Below are positions 1,200 to 57,630 of a stretch of 64,000 nucleotides of DNA, one piece after another. Position 1 is the first letter of the stretch, and every line of letters starts with the position of its first letter. This stretch comes from Phycisphaeraceae bacterium D3-23. Its GTDB lineage: Bacteria > Planctomycetota > Phycisphaerae > Phycisphaerales > Phycisphaeraceae. Under the pieces are notes generated by a model that was given only the letters and a program-made list of their open reading frames with translations, did no database searches and had not been told where the DNA came from. Location: contig CP114179.1 in the NCBI GenBank assembly GCA_039555135.1, forward strand, positions 1,798,001 through 1,862,000. The letters are read 5' to 3'. Position numbers and translations under genes: made by a program.

Positions 1200-1305
1200 C
1201 CGTAGGGTGGGTGGAGCGAGTCCGCGAGCGATACCCACCGCGCGCTACCGACACACTTGAGATTCGATGGTGGGTTGCGCTCGCGAACTCCCTCCACCCA
1301 CCCGA
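1200..1305. repeat. R1 palindromic repeat, full copy
   Basis: The left arm (about 1201-1241, starting GTAGGGTGGGTGGAGCGAGT) and the right arm (about 1269-1305, ending CTCCACCCACCC) are imperfect reverse complements separated by about 27 bases. It starts two bases after a stop codon and ends four bases before the stop of the convergent gene, so it fills the whole space between them. Other copies of this family lie near 4436, 19055, 21053 and 43699. It could act as a bidirectional transcription end, but it has no T-tract. Confidence 0.85.
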
Positions 1306-1309
1306 CGCA

Positions 1310-1921
1310 TCACCGCAACACCACCACCCGCTCGACCGTGTACACCCGCCCCGTCACAACATCTGTCAACGCGACGTGGACCGTCAGCCCGCCGGTGATC
1401 TGCGTATCCGCTGGCACCTGCGCTTCGAGTGTGTAGTGCGTCCCCGTGATGCCATCGCGGTACGCGGCGTGGAACTGGTCGGCGTCGTATTCTTTATCCA
1501 CCAGCGCCACCGGGTCGCCCTGGGCCGGGGTATGGATCAGCCGCAGACGGGCCGTCCCCGCCACCGTGATGATGCGCCCGTCCTGGTCCACCGGCCGCAG
1601 ATACACGCGAAGCTCCGCGACCCCAGACCCGTCCCCGGCCACGGCACCTGTGGGCAGCAGCCCCGTCAGCCGATCCAACTCGATCCCCGCGAGCCGGGGC
1701 CCATCGACCCCCTCGACCGGGCCCCCGCCCTCCGCCGCGCGCATTGCCGCGAGCTCGCGCTCGCGCATCGCGAGCTGTTCGCCCAGCTGATCGACCGCGC
1801 GTTCGAGGTCCATGTTCGACCGCCGAAGCTCGTCGTTCTGCGTCGAAAGTTTGTTCGACGACGCCCCGCAGCCGGGCAGCGCGAGCGACAACAACACACA
1901 TGCGAGCAGGGCTAGTCTCAT
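1310..1921 (-). CDS. Hypothetical lipoprotein with N-terminal coiled coil
   Basis: This is a 203-residue secreted lipoprotein. It begins MRLALLACVLLSLALPGC, a lipoprotein signal peptide with lipobox LALPGC and acceptor Cys18. Residues about 25-70 form a heptad-rich coiled coil (NDELRRSNMDLERAVDQLGE), followed by a soluble beta-rich domain of about 120 residues that I do not recognise. The frame is open further upstream to 2008, but that extension would be translated from palindromic repeat sequence, so the ATG at 1921 is chosen. A TACACT hexamer lies exactly six bases upstream, suggesting a leaderless transcript. It is convergent with the DUF4954 gene, and clpP lies upstream on the same strand beyond the R2 repeat. 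Function is unknown; an envelope-structural role is possible. Confidence 0.75.
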   Translation of the reverse strand: MRLALLACVLLSLALPGCGASSNKLSTQNDELRRSNMDLERAVDQLGEQLAMRERELAAMRAAEGGGPVEGVDGPRLAGIELDRLTGLLPTGAVAGDGSGVAELRVYLRPVDQDGRIITVAGTARLRLIHTPAQGDPVALVDKEYDADQFHAAYRDGITGTHYTLEAQVPADTQITGGLTVHVALTDVVTGRVYTVERVVVLR

Positions 1922-4433: not shown

Positions 4434-4435
4434 TG

Positions 4436-4474
4436 CGTAGGGTGGGTGGAGCGAGTCCGCGAGCGATACCCACC
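4436..4474. repeat. R1 repeat, left arm only
   Basis: A single arm starting GTAGGGTGGGTGGAGCGAGT and ending at CCCACC, beginning a few bases after the sulfatase stop. The matching right arm is missing; a different inverted repeat follows instead. Confidence 0.8.
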
Positions 4475-4484
4475 ACGGGAAACA

Positions 4485-4550
4485 GAGCACGAAGCGTGAG
4501 CGAGTGCCCGGCTGTCGAATGAGTACATCACTCGCTCACGCTTCGTGCTC
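4485..4550. repeat. Perfect 22-bp inverted repeat
   Basis: The arm at 4485-4506 (GAGCACGAAGCGTGAGCGAG plus two bases) is the exact reverse complement of 4529-4550, with a 22-base loop. It lies between the sulfatase and the cyanophycinase-like gene and could form a long hairpin in the transcript. No T-tract follows it. Confidence 0.85.
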
Positions 4551-16323: not shown

Positions 16324-16331
16324 GAAACAGA

Positions 16332-16440
16332 TAGGGGCCAAGGGGTCAGGGGCCGAGGGGCCAAGTAGTCGAAACGAACGCCCCCCTGCCTTCCCACTCG
16401 GCCCCTCGACCCCTTAGCCCCTCGACCCCTTCCCCCACCC
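16332..16440. repeat. R3 palindromic repeat (C-rich/G-rich arms), copy A
   Basis: The left arm is G-rich (AGGGGCCAAGGGGTCAGGGG...), the right arm is its C-rich complement (CCCCTCGACCCCTTAGCCCC...), and the loop is about 35 bases. It fills the space from just after the permease stop to one base before the SCO start codon. Related copies are at 21963 and 33391, and half copies at about 49278 and 57592. Confidence 0.85.
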
Positions 16441-17114: not shown

Positions 17115-17268
17115 GGATTGGGGTCTGGGGTTTAGGGTCTAGGGTCTGGGCACCAGCGCGCGACATTCCGCAACGATGAAACGCATACGGCAACTCCACT
17201 ACTTTCACGATCCAAACTTCGTCCTTCAATGCACCAGCCCAGACCCTAAACCCTAGACCCCAGACTCT
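17115..17268. repeat. R4 palindromic repeat (GGTCTGGGG / CCCCAGACC arms)
   Basis: The left arm 17117-17146 (GGGGTCTGGGGTTTAGGGTC...) and right arm 17240-17268 (CCCAGACCCTAAACCCTAGA...) are reverse complements around a 90-base loop. The element runs from just after the SCO stop to the next ATG. Half copies with the same wording precede the starts of actC (52855) and the subunit II gene (59115). Confidence 0.8.
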
Positions 17269-18174
17269 ATGAACGCCCCCAACCCCAACCAGTTCGACAC
17301 GCCCAGCCCCGAGCGGCTGGCCAAGCACCTCGCGGACCACCCGCCGGTGATGGCGCGTTCGGTGCGCGGGTGGGTGCTCATGGTGATGGCGGCGGGGCTG
17401 ATGCTGGCGATGCTCGTGTCGGCGGTGCTGCCGATGCTTAGCGTCCTGCTGCTGCTCGCGCCGCTCGGGCTCCTGTGGTTCTTGGCCAACCGCGCGCAGC
17501 GGGCGCGTGAGCTGCACCAGCGCGTCGGCCGGGTCTGGGAACTCGCCATGCTGCGTGAGCACCGCGAAGCGCTACGCCGGGCATGGACCCTGCTCCCGCA
17601 GGTCCGCCAGCACGCCGACCTGCACCTGCGCTGCGTCGCCGTCATCGGCCACACCCTCGACGACCTCGCGCAGTACGACAGCGCCATCGTCGCATTCGAC
17701 TACCTCCTCGACCGCCTGCCCCCCACCCACCCGATGGCGCTGCAGACCGGCGTGCAGCGTGCCAACGCCGCGCTCTGCGACGACCAACTCGCCGACGCCG
17801 ACGACGCCCTACGCAAACTCCGCGGCAGCATCGAGCAGCTCCCGCCGGGACCGATCCCCGCCGGCTACCAGCTCGCCAAGCTCGTCCAGGACGTCCGCAC
17901 CGGACACTTCGCCGAGGCCGCCCAGCACGCCGACGACACCGCCAGCAAGCTCCAGCCCCTCGGCGTCCACGCGGGCTACGGCTACGGGCTCCTCGCCTAC
18001 TGCCAGCACCAGCTCGCCCTGCGCAACGACGACGTACCCGCCGCCGCGCAGCAACAGCATGCCGCTAAACAACACTGGCACAACGCCACCCTGCTGATCC
18101 CCCCCGCCGCACTCGCCCACCGCTACCGCGAGCTGGGCGCACTCATCCCCACCGGCCCGGCCGACACCGCGTGA
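17269..18174 (+). CDS. Hypothetical membrane protein with TPR-like C-terminus (first of a pair)
   Basis: The 301-residue protein has two adjacent membrane helices (about residues 36-75, WVLMVMAAGLMLAMLVSAVL and MLSVLLLLAPLGLLWFL) followed by a helical cytoplasmic part. Its pattern of paired helices (LREHREALRRAWTLLPQVRQ, LDDLAQYDSAIVAFDYLLDR) is TPR-like. I do not recognise a named family. The next gene overlaps its stop and has the same architecture and a similar length, so the two look like an ancient tandem duplication working together. Protein-protein scaffolding at the membrane is a reasonable guess, possibly tied to the SCO protein just upstream, but this is inference only. Confidence 0.75.
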   Translation: MNAPNPNQFDTPSPERLAKHLADHPPVMARSVRGWVLMVMAAGLMLAMLVSAVLPMLSVLLLLAPLGLLWFLANRAQRARELHQRVGRVWELAMLREHREALRRAWTLLPQVRQHADLHLRCVAVIGHTLDDLAQYDSAIVAFDYLLDRLPPTHPMALQTGVQRANAALCDDQLADADDALRKLRGSIEQLPPGPIPAGYQLAKLVQDVRTGHFAEAAQHADDTASKLQPLGVHAGYGYGLLAYCQHQLALRNDDVPAAAQQQHAAKQHWHNATLLIPPAALAHRYRELGALIPTGPADTA

Positions 18175-19058
18175 ACAAAACCCCCACCCAGCCCGAACCC
18201 ATCCTCCGACCGTTCGACCCGCACGCGTTTCGCCGCCAACTCACGCGCGCCGCGATCGTCCACCGGGTCGCCGTCGGCTTCACCTTCGCCGCGCTCGCCG
18301 CCGTCCTGCTGCTGCCCCTGCTCTTCCTCCCCGAAACGCAGCAGGCCCCCATCGCCCTGCTCGCCATGTTCCTCATCCCCGCGATCTGGCTACCCATCAC
18401 GCTCACCACCCAGCGCGTCGCGCGCACCCTCCCGCAAATCGGCGCGGCGATCACCACCGACCCCGAACGCGCCGAGCGCCTCATCGCCGACGCACTCAAA
18501 CGCAAGCCCGTCATGGCCTGGGGACGCCTGCTCACCTACCACCGCCTCGCCGCGCTTCGCCATCAGCAGCACAACTTTGATGAGACCGCCGACATCTGCC
18601 AGAACATCCTCAGCCAGCCACTCACCGGCCCCGCCGCGGCCGCGCGGCCGTCACTGCTGCTCATGCTCACCGAGGCACACCTCGCGCGGGGCAACCTTGT
18701 CGGGGCATACCACACACTCAGCGAACTCCACCGCACCCGCCTCGGGCTCGCCGGCGCGATGCAGCGGCTCGCGCTCCAGACCCGCTACGCCCTCAAGGCC
18801 GGGGCGTACGAACACGCCCTGGACCACGGCCGCGAAAAGATGCAGCTCGCCGAACTCATGCCCCCGCCCCAGTGCGGCGCGATGCACGCCATGCTCGCCG
18901 ACGCTGCGAAAAAAACCGGCCGCGACAAACTCGCAAGCTGGCTCTGGGAACGCGCAAAACTCATCAGCCCGCCCCACCTCCTCGACCAGCTCCAACAAGG
19001 CGCGTTCGACGTCGACGTCGTCGCGGCAGACGAAACAACACAAGATGTATCCGCGTAG
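18171..19058 (+). CDS. Hypothetical membrane protein with TPR-like C-terminus (second of a pair)
   Basis: The 295-residue protein starts with GTG overlapping the previous stop (GTGA), the usual sign of translational coupling. Two membrane helices lie at about 33-82 (VGFTFAALAAVLLLPLLFL and IALLAMFLIPAIWLPITL), then a helical domain with TPR-like pairs (ERAERLIADALKRKPVMAWG, DETADICQNILSQPL, LLLMLTEAHLARGNLVGAYH). It resembles its upstream partner in layout. Its TAG stop (19056-19058) is the TAG inside the first bases (GTAGGG) of an R1 repeat, so the repeat defines the C-terminus. Function is unknown. Confidence 0.75.
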   Translation: MNKTPTQPEPILRPFDPHAFRRQLTRAAIVHRVAVGFTFAALAAVLLLPLLFLPETQQAPIALLAMFLIPAIWLPITLTTQRVARTLPQIGAAITTDPERAERLIADALKRKPVMAWGRLLTYHRLAALRHQQHNFDETADICQNILSQPLTGPAAAARPSLLLMLTEAHLARGNLVGAYHTLSELHRTRLGLAGAMQRLALQTRYALKAGAYEHALDHGREKMQLAELMPPPQCGAMHAMLADAAKKTGRDKLASWLWERAKLISPPHLLDQLQQGAFDVDVVAADETTQDVSA

Positions 19059-19159
19059 GGTGGATGGAGCGAGTCGGCGAGCGATACCCACCGCGATGAA
19101 ACCAATCACTTGACAGCGCCCGGTGGGTTCCGCTCGCCGACTAACTCCACCCACCCCGC
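19055..19159. repeat. R1 palindromic repeat, full copy
   Basis: Left arm GTAGGGTGGATGGAGCGAGT, right arm ending CTCCACCCACCCCGC, with a 30-base loop. Its first bases supply the stop codon of the preceding gene. Confidence 0.85.
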
Positions 19160-19233
19160 GCCGCTACCCCGCCCCACGCCGAGGCCTGAGTCCGCGAAGG
19201 CCCGGATCAAACACCGGGTATCATGCCCCACCC

Positions 19234-21052: not shown

Positions 21053-21162
21053 CGTAGGGTGAGAGGAGCGAGTCCGCGAGCGATACCCGCCATCGAGACA
21101 CAACCAACTTTGTAGCGCCCGGTGGGTTGCGCTCGCGGACTCGCTCCACCCACCCTACGCCG
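21053..21162. repeat. R1 palindromic repeat, full copy
   Basis: The left arm starts GTAGGGTGAGAGGAGCGAGT and the right arm ends CTCCACCCACCCTACG. The SDR gene on the minus strand takes its TAG stop (21155-21157) from this right arm. Confidence 0.85.
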
Positions 21163-21962: not shown

Positions 21963-22098
21963 GGAAGGGACCAAAGGGTCAGGGGTCAAGGGGTCAAGGG
22001 GTCAAGAGGTCAAGAGGTCAAGTGATCGAAGTATATCGCCCGACTCCGCCTAAACACGCAACACTCGGCCCCTTGGCCCCTCGACCCCTTGGCCCCTA
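21963..22098. repeat. R3 palindromic repeat, copy B
   Basis: The G-rich left arm has extra tandem units (GGTCAAGGGGTCAAGAGGTC...) and the C-rich right arm reads CGGCCCCTTGGCCCCTCGAC. The junction CGCAACACTCGGCCCC is identical to the copy inside ruvB (about 33450-33466). The element fills the space between the divergent SDR and pyrE genes. Confidence 0.85.
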
Positions 22099-22102
22099 TA
22101 CT
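22097..22102 (+). promoter_or_regulatory. Possible -10 box before pyrE
   Basis: TATACT lies seven bases before the ATG at 22110, right at the end of the R3 repeat. The spacing is one base longer than in the other leaderless candidates. Confidence 0.4.
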
Positions 22103-32779: not shown

Positions 32780-33907
32780 ATGGCCACCGAGCGCATCATC
32801 TCCGCCGACGCCGCCTCCCCGCGCGAGGAGCAGTTCAACCTCGCGCTGCGCCCGCAGTCGCTCGCCGAGTACGTCGGCCAGCCGGCACTCACCAACAAAC
32901 TCTCGATCACCCTTCAGGCCGTGCGCCAGCGCGGCGAGCCGATGGAACACGTCCTGCTCCACGGCCCGCCAGGGCTGGGCAAAACCACCCTCGCCCACAT
33001 CATCGCCAACGAGATGGGCACCCACCTCACCGTCACCGCCGGGCCCGCACTCACCAAGCCCGGCGACCTCGTCGGGCTCCTCACCAAGCTCCAGCCCCGC
33101 GACGTCCTGTTCATCGACGAGATCCACCGCCTGCCGATCGCGCTCGAAGAGTACCTCTACTCCGCGATGGAGGACTTCAAGATCGACGTGCAGATCGACA
33201 GCGGCATGCACGCCAAAACCATCACGCTCCCCGTCCAGCCGTTCAGTCTGATCGGCGCAACCACTCGCGCAGGCCTGCTCTCCGGCCCGATGCGCAGCCG
33301 GTTCGGGCTCAACCACAACCTCGAGTTCTACAGCGAAGCGGACCTGCTGAGTATCCTGCTGCGTAGCGCCGGATTGCTTGGGATGGACAGTGGGAGGGGC
33401 CCAGGGGCTAAGGGGCCCAGGGGACAAGTGGGGGAACCGGGGATGGGAAAGACGCAACACTCGGCCCCTGGGCCCCTTAGCCCCTTGGCCCCTACTCTAT
33501 CCACCATCGCCGCCCGCTCCCGCGGCACCCCGCGCATCGCCAACCGCCTGCTCCGCCGGGTCCGCGACTACGCGCAGGTCAAGCACGACAACCAACTCTC
33601 ACCTGTGATCGTCGACGAAGCGCTCCAACTCGAAGGCGTCGATGCGCTGGGCCTGGACGAGCTCGACCGCAAGTACCTCCGCTGCATCGCGGAAATCTAC
33701 GAGGGCGGGCCCGTCGGACTCGAAGCCGTCGCCGCCACGCTCGGCGACGACTCGGGCACCTTAGAGCAGGCCGTCGAGCCGTACCTGCTGCAGCTCGGCT
33801 TCCTCGCACGCACCCGCAAGGGCCGACAACTCACCCGCACCGGCGCGGAACACCTCGGGGTTAAGCTGCGTACGAATGAGGAGGGCGACGCGGCGGGATT
33901 GTTCTAG
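32780..33907 (+). CDS. ruvB: Holliday junction branch migration helicase RuvB with an in-frame repeat insertion
   Basis: RuvB is the hexameric AAA+ motor that drives branch migration with RuvA. Visible motifs are Walker A GPPGLGKTT (62-70), Walker B FIDEIH (111-116), sensor I GATTRAG (159-165), the arginine-finger region MRSRFG (171-176), sensor II RGTPRIANRLLRRVRDYA, and the C-terminal winged-helix region GPVGLEAVAATLGDD...EPYLLQLGFLARTRKG. The 375-residue length exceeds the usual 335-350. Between AGLLG and IAARSRGTPR, where other RuvBs have about 11 residues, there are about 41 (204-241: SGRGPGAKGPRGQVGEPGMG and so on) encoded by an R3 palindromic repeat. The frame is kept and all motifs remain, so the gene is probably functional. 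ruvA and ruvC are not in the window. Confidence 0.93.
   Translation: MATERIISADAASPREEQFNLALRPQSLAEYVGQPALTNKLSITLQAVRQRGEPMEHVLLHGPPGLGKTTLAHIIANEMGTHLTVTAGPALTKPGDLVGLLTKLQPRDVLFIDEIHRLPIALEEYLYSAMEDFKIDVQIDSGMHAKTITLPVQPFSLIGATTRAGLLSGPMRSRFGLNHNLEFYSEADLLSILLRSAGLLGMDSGRGPGAKGPRGQVGEPGMGKTQHSAPGPLSPLAPTLSTIAARSRGTPRIANRLLRRVRDYAQVKHDNQLSPVIVDEALQLEGVDALGLDELDRKYLRCIAEIYEGGPVGLEAVAATLGDDSGTLEQAVEPYLLQLGFLARTRKGRQLTRTGAEHLGVKLRTNEEGDAAGLF
33391..33497. repeat. R3 palindromic repeat, copy C, inside ruvB
   Basis: The left arm (GAGGGGCCCAGGGGCTAAGG...) and right arm (CCCCTGGGCCCCTTAGCCCC...) are about 30 bases each with few mismatches. The junction CGCAACACTCGGCCCC is identical to the intergenic copy at 21963-22098. 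It lies wholly within the ruvB reading frame. Confidence 0.9.
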
Positions 33908-33911
33908 CAAC

Positions 33912-34003
33912 CGTGGGGCAGACATTCCTGTCTGCCTTCCGGCGCAGCCGGGATCAGGGCGATTCGGCCTGCGGCCGATGGCAGACAAGAATGTCTGCCC
34001 CAC
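33912..34003. repeat. Palindrome with GTGGGGCAGACATTC arms
   Basis: GTGGGGCAGACATTC at the left and GAATGTCTGCCCCAC at the right are exact reverse complements, with inner arms (CAGCCGGGATCAGG region and GGCCTGCGGCCGATGG). It starts four bases after the ruvB stop. In forward frame it would read MGQTFLSA, so an upstream start for the next gene should be ignored. Confidence 0.85.
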
Positions 34004-34026
34004 GATTCATCCCTCTGGAGGCCGAC

Positions 34027-43698: not shown

Positions 43699-43743
43699 CC
43701 CGGTGGGTATCGCTCGCGGACTCGCTGCACCCACCCTACGCGC
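43699..43743. repeat. R1 repeat, single arm
   Basis: CGGTGGGTATCGCTCGCGGA to CACCCACCCTACGC is one arm of the R1 family; a matching opposite arm is not seen within 100 bases. Confidence 0.75.
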
Positions 43744-49277: not shown

Positions 49278-49319
49278 CAGCACCCGGCCCCTGACCCCTC
49301 GGCCCCTTGGCCCCTTCCC
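49278..49319. repeat. R3 half repeat before actB
   Basis: C-rich right-arm units (CGGCCCCTGACCCCTCGGCC...) without a G-rich partner, between actA and actB. Confidence 0.7.
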
Positions 49320-57591: not shown

Positions 57592-57630
57592 ACACCCGGC
57601 CCCTTGGCCCCTGACCCCTTGGCCCCCTCA
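57592..57630. repeat. R3 half repeat before the small membrane protein gene
   Basis: CCGGCCCCTTGGCCCCTGAC and more C-rich units run up to three bases before the ATG at 57633. No G-rich partner arm is present. Confidence 0.7.

Follow-up and report, generated by a model that had tools for sequence, protein, structure and literature searches.

A dispersed palindromic element in frame in ruvB and other core genes of Phycisphaeraceae bacterium D3-23

Rickettsia palindromic elements (RPEs) and the WPEs of Wolbachia are palindromes of ~105-146 bp that lie between genes or in frame inside conserved genes; orthologues carry inserts at the same sites, and hot spots for inserts of differing origin are one possibility that has been raised (PMC2229807, PMC3767692). 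GTAG/CGTC REPs, 20-40 bp in length, are found within genes of several species, with Opitutus terrae and R. conorii as the foremost cases and Thauera and Xanthomonas among the other hosts; many of the genes concerned serve DNA synthesis or repair, and some encode tRNA synthetases or tRNA pseudouridine synthases (PMC3733652). MITEs such as Correia/NEMIS and ERIC are short inverted repeats that are at times fused in frame to genes (PMC2229807), and palindromic DNA also lies within coding sequence in PARCELs (PMC2996958) and in Nematomorpha mitochondria (PMC6649704). An earlier note on the DNA described here had taken Rickettsia as the known case of repeats that invade genes in this way; the analogy holds, but the intragenic REPs of several species mean that Rickettsia does not stand alone (PMC3733652). 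The same note knew of no description for this lineage, and the literature matches listed, searched as titles and abstract beginnings and drawn mostly from non-subscription literature, likewise include no such in-gene insert from Phycisphaerae.

The window we analyzed is the whole stretch of 64,000 nucleotides (G000:C1:1798001-1862000) from a genome assembled as a single contig of 4,619,879 bases, whose closest relatives, among those named, fall in the Phycisphaerae and elsewhere in the Planctomycetota. The relevant features, in window coordinates and all on the plus strand, are:

32780-33907, +, ruvB coding sequence, 375 aa, frame open through the element
33391-33497, +, palindromic element (R3) in frame in ruvB, encoding approximately residues 205-239
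33395-33430, +, left arm of the element, four G-run units with an 8-nt period, then the AAGTG junction
33431-33457, +, asymmetric spacer of the ruvB copy, its 3' end GCAA before CACTCGG common to other copies
33458-33493, +, right arm of the element, CACT then four C-run units
33453-33468, +, junction string CGCAACACTCGGCCCC, with an exact second copy at 22057-22072
21963-22101, +, intergenic copy between divergent genes, covariance-model match, pyrE-like gene on the right
16329-16434, +, intergenic copy between tandem genes, covariance-model match
49279-49315, +, half-copy, right arm only, from the inverted-repeat listing and BLAST
57592-57628, +, intergenic half-copy, right arm only, from the inverted-repeat listing and BLAST

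Like RPEs, the element is palindromic, falls in the range of ~100-150 bp, and occurs both between genes and in frame within conserved genes. It differs from them in its host, a member of the Planctomycetota rather than the Rickettsiales, in its high G+C, in its arms built of an 8-nt unit, and in having its own spacer. It works like an RPE, an analogy that does not make it a member of the RPE family. PARCELs and the Nematomorpha palindromes differ in forming tandem protein repeats or conserved gene parts, whereas the inserts here are dispersed.

The ruvB copy is a real inverted repeat with arms of 36 nt, 92% complementary and 27 nt apart, enclosed in a single open frame. RuvB_N, AAA_lid_4, and RuvB_C are all matched by the product, in keeping with the earlier note's view that the RuvB motifs remain in frame. 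We compared the protein across a 50-row alignment, with one row each for the window and the genome's own copy plus 48 other loci, of which five repeat a genome that already had a row. Between the flanking helices the loop measures 37 residues, against 7 in 25 of the 50 rows; this gain of 30 equals that of the previously proposed replacement of 11 residues by 41. The 7-residue rows include the same-genus genomes G003 and G004, a third member of the genus (G001) has an 18-residue loop of other sequence, and loops in the remaining rows range from 6 to 31 residues, so the site tolerates length change. Among the 48 other rows the element was present only at the two loci of same-genus G002 (L032 and L061, JAUHZU010000004.1), in diverged sequence; close relatives thus do not uniformly carry these residues without a palindrome.

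Between G000 and G002 the insert retains 77% nucleotide identity with one 3-nt length change and has a dN/dS of 1.08 (36 codons); outside the insert, ruvB gives 0.11 (338 codons). The reading frame of the insert is retained while its peptide drifts, under relaxed protein constraint. AlphaFold2, run on a 27-row alignment, models RuvB with a mean pLDDT of 85.2 and at least 90 for 259/375 residues, and places residues 207-229, with pLDDT below 50, as a loop between confident helices at 186-199 and 237-245. The model supports, rather than proves, a flexible or disordered surface loop, in agreement with the earlier suggestion.

Across copies, the element is a palindrome of ~106 nt in which arrays of an 8-nt unit (AGGGGCCA type) form the arms on either side of a short asymmetric spacer. 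The unit is mostly AGGGGYYR, with AGTGGCCA as a sister subtype, and the arms meet at AAGTG and CACT. Part of the spacer is common among copies, with CCAAGTG on the left and, in many of them, GCGCAACACTCGG or something near it on the right; sharing of an asymmetric spacer ties the copies by descent, not by composition. In the window, the 16-nt string CGCAACACTCGGCCCC occurs at 22057 and 33453, with none expected from 100 shuffles. A junction shared between ruvB and an intergenic copy at 21963-22098 had been claimed, and both the string and that copy were recovered. The unit length, 8, leaves a remainder of 2 on division by 3, so a regular arm yields one and the same 8-residue cycle (for example GAKGPRGQ or HSAPRPLD) whichever of its three frames is read, which would make insertion in any frame comparatively harmless.

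The ruvB copy is one member of a chromosome-wide set. A BLAST search of the genome with the element returned 52 matches, and a covariance model built from 16 copies returned 78 on both strands, merged to 43 places at E<=0.1; the ruvB copy, which belongs to the training set, scored 105.8 bits (33392-33497). We examined 42 places, consisting of 40 model places and two BLAST half-copies (3158420 and 1855540), after dropping weak model matches (1318099, 939188, and 881022; E 0.037-0.067) and short matches from BLAST only (154309, 629417, 353633, 2142674, 1728637, 2762885, 1385730, and 1847276). Judged by frame continuity, codon scores, and family matches, 22 of these lie within genes, 21 of them in frame, and 20 are intergenic. 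A strict script rule made 12 of the in-frame calls, and nine came from reading the open frame together with family or codon evidence; the weakest placements are 783272 (no family), 3395188, and 4396071. The genome-wide search and in-gene count that the earlier note had proposed confirm that the phenomenon is real and more general than ruvB alone, which is not a special host but one among 22 in-gene copies.

The 20 host genes are ruvB, priA (two sites), mutS, rarA, an SNF2-type helicase, valS, leuS, tgt, queG, a miaA-like gene, acs, nadA, purL, gltB, atpG, Hsp70, three GNAT-like genes (four copies), and one gene without a family match. Two of the GNAT-like names derive from matches below the Pfam cut-off, and the valS, rarA, and purL products have strong matches that nevertheless fall below the curated cut-off of every own-function NCBIfam model (the valS query was partial). 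The genes called miaA, mfd, carB, pyrG, pyrE, rsmD, groES/groEL, sucC, and ruvA are ones we take to be such from their sequences. As assembled, the miaA-like copy is the only frame-broken one among the 22; the break reads as a pair of single-base shifts, of which one falls at a C7 run, and could be an assembly error or real decay. Of the intergenic copies, one immediately precedes a ruvA-like gene (G000:C1:2629468-2629564) and another separates groES- from groEL-like genes (2934729-2934834); their hairpins may affect expression. A weaker model match (window 17115-17274, 36.9 bits) is a G-rich inverted stretch with a different unit (GGGTCT type).

Of the 22 in-gene copies, 20 have the better model score in the gene sense, including 14/14 with a 5-bit gap between strands or a match on one strand alone. 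The strand scores of the two exceptions, gltB and Hsp70, are less than 5 bits apart, which is also true of six copies that agree. Spacers set the orientation of the 16 training copies; where no clear one could be made out, as in tgt and nadA, the copy was kept on the plus strand of the record. An independent count of CARCACT, present in 14/22 in-gene copies, placed it on the coding strand in 12 and on the opposite strand in 2. Replication-strand bias was ruled out as the cause, since priA (-) and mutS (+) lie 3 kb apart and each copy follows its own gene, not the replichore. The peptide of the used frame is more hydrophilic than those of opposite-strand open frames in 20/21 copies (Wilcoxon p 2e-6). 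Genic copies average 3.8/6 open frames compared with 1.85/6 for intergenic ones, a difference that arises partly by definition, as genic copies need one. On the simplest reading, selection on the protein would have removed the opposite orientation.

Alignment to solved structures runs 204|241 here against 205|211 for RuvB, 361|396 against 299|298 for Acs, 617|657 against 530|531 for LeuS, and 341|369 against 326|327 for Tgt; in all four it resumes past the insert with at most a few residues between. The extra residues, which most relatives and the solved homologues checked do not have, are an insertion rather than ancestral sequence. G002 carries the element at nine places. Both genomes have filled ruvB and queG sites, whereas the valS site and the second priA site are filled in G000 and empty in G002. 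In G002, the first of the priA sites and the domain-II site of mutS keep only in-frame left-arm remnants, and the mfd site and the mutS site before the ATPase domain have the element where G000 has other inserts. In the other relatives searched, valS matches begin after the insert. Such same-genus differences in filled sites suggest that the element moves or moved, and the differences could in part be losses. In the genome's own mutS (L174), the site of G002's palindrome holds, at about aa 708-732, a different insert of 20-odd residues (VNSEQSTVNREE type), perhaps another repeat family.

Beyond the genus, the element can be followed within the order. The covariance model at E<=1e-6 found the element in 6/61 genomes, G000 included, and the exact arm pattern occurred in 9/151 genomes of the order (again with G000) against 1/151 for a backward control; G048, G063, G077, and G082 were counted by pattern, not as palindromes. 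In the phylum, the pattern was present in 3/199 genomes and its backward control in 4/199, so there is no excess, and wide spread at that level is unsupported. Unit versions vary among genomes, with AAGTGGCC found in G030, both at two places in a carB-like gene and at the queG site that is also filled in G000, AAGGCACC in G010, and AAGGGACC in a pyrG-like gene of G027.

Given these results, we consider it very probable that the element is a selfish dispersed palindrome, mobile now or formerly, that is tolerated as a translated surface loop. It would have entered ruvB at the loop of the lid domain, in a common ancestor of this bacterium and its closest relative, and would be transcribed and translated within RuvB without being removed; translation of the insert is presumed from the open frame. 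The insert would add ~30 residues as a flexible, Gly/Pro-rich loop outside the AAA+ fold, presumably neutral for RuvB function, and mobility would account for the dispersal. Selection would act as a filter, such that surviving in-gene insertions are those that keep the frame, lie in tolerant loops, and run in the orientation that yields a hydrophilic peptide. Gene-invading palindromes would thereby extend to the Planctomycetota, with many core targets (ruvB, priA, mutS, valS, leuS, purL, and others), and would offer a natural test of selfish DNA turning into protein, while the 8-nt unit suggests why no frame is closed to repeats of this type. That repair and tRNA genes recur as hosts, a pattern also remarked upon for unrelated REPs (PMC3733652), raises the question of target bias, loop tolerance, or a benefit to the element.

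The foremost alternative is that the element is a functional module under selection, for instance a hairpin or G-quadruplex through which repair and tRNA genes have their translation or mRNA lifetime tuned. Several host genes do encode nucleic-acid enzymes, and the ruvB element folds as RNA into a very stable hairpin (-79.5 kcal/mol, z -5.3; 0/200 shuffles equal). The GGGG/CCCC runs are also conserved in the 16 copies, with linker bases that vary independently between the two arms. Base-pair covariation in the arms of these copies (0.084 observed, 0.087 shuffled) shows no excess and does not support a conserved RNA structure; since variable arm positions do not covary, selection on the hairpin as such is not visible. 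An Rfam scan of the ruvB region gave miRNA models only, all below gathering scores. Moreover, presence differs between same-genus genomes, sites decay, the element was not found in most relatives, and the ruvB insert is under relaxed protein constraint. A role at single sites is still compatible with these data, but a general function is unlikely.

Less likely still is that the segment is skipped, by translational bypass or removal at the RNA level, to leave a mature RuvB that does not contain it. A stable message hairpin could support bypass, but skipping needs neither an open frame nor a length divisible by three, and yet 21/22 in-gene copies are in frame and stop-free, and both G002 remnants keep the frame too. 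We regard as highly improbable an origin in place, by template switching or local duplication without dispersal, to which the short-unit arrays of the arms and an unrelated palindrome at the same ruvB loop in another genus lend some appeal; the 16-nt junction and asymmetric spacer common to copies across the chromosome argue against it, as do homologous sites that are empty in a close relative. An assembly or binning artefact, suggested by the suspected errors near C runs at the miaA-like copy, is scarcely credible given that the separate G002 assembly (JAUHZU010000004.1) has a diverged in-frame ruvB insert.

If the element is a dispersed selfish palindrome, a mobilizing enzyme might be sought among the RAYT-like genes, of which the genome has five, three above the family cut-off. 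By eye, each sits between its own palindromic or repeated ends, a likeness to REPtrons and TIRtrons; the difference is that the arms of our element flank 0/5 of them (strict three-unit pattern). RAYT linkage was rejected on this count, although action in trans would be compatible with it, and our search of the genome found no mobilizing enzyme for the element. One RAYT-like gene lies inside valS, 1.3 kb from the valS element copy. The element also resembles GTAG/CGTC REPs as a dispersed palindrome inside genes with repair- and tRNA-type hosts, and differs from them in its length and in having no regular end tag: GTAG lies within a few bases of an end in 3/32 trimmed copies and CGTC in 2/32 (10/42 copies could not be trimmed). 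With MITEs it shares inverted repeats, but no clear target-site duplication was seen at the copies, whose flank similarity of 3.1, against 2.9 for shuffled pairs (23/500 shuffles as high), is at most a weak signal. Other repeats in the window resemble those beside RAYT genes. A palindrome immediately 3' of the ruvB stop (window 33909-34007; 47-nt arms 83% complementary, GGGGCAGACATTCCTGTCTGCC type) is similar to repeats beside the gene at G000:C1:1312956, and a dispersed repeat of CGTAGGGTGGGTGGAGCGAGTCC type (window 1201-1310, 4435-4487, 19052-19163, 21053-21162, and 43699-43742) is similar to one beside the gene at G000:C1:3886852.

The ruvB and mfd loops also hold unrelated repeats. In G013, from another genus of the same family, a perfect 29-nt inverted repeat of unrelated sequence lies in frame at the same ruvB loop and belongs to a dispersed family of that genome, with 26 matches on both strands. 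At the eight G013 loci read, the frame is open through the repeat in ruvB, mfd, and what we take to be glycosyltransferase-like and oxidoreductase-like genes; the other four are ambiguous or near frame ends. The mfd copy of G013 occupies the site where G002 has the 8-nt-unit element, and there the mfd-like gene of G000 (L317, G000:C1:742647-745556) contains yet another, third insert, GADGMSDGGSRIADRQQNPSAIAHPTSP; the DNA of this insert shows, by eye, inverted-repeat-like ends (ATGTCGGATGGCGGAT and ATCCGCCATCGCCCATCCGACAT). The queG loop is filled in two genera. Tentatively, and with our judgment just short of an even balance, certain core-enzyme loops in the order may be places where unrelated selfish DNA lands repeatedly and is subsequently translated, and a transposase may even ride unspliced in an essential enzyme; the third mfd insert raised our estimate slightly. 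The transposase case comes from valS (G000:C1:1601718-1597783, minus strand, 1311 aa; L177, L247, L253), which contains a whole REP-associated tyrosine transposase in frame at about aa 462-640, above the NCBIfam cut-off and with palindromic ends. In addition to this and the element, valS has a third repeat-like insert at about aa 826-862, and the transposase and third-insert sites are both closed up in G002. In another family of the order, valS (L254, G040:C33:16336-18288, minus strand) carries a REP-type transposase in frame at the same site, bounded by different terminal repeats.
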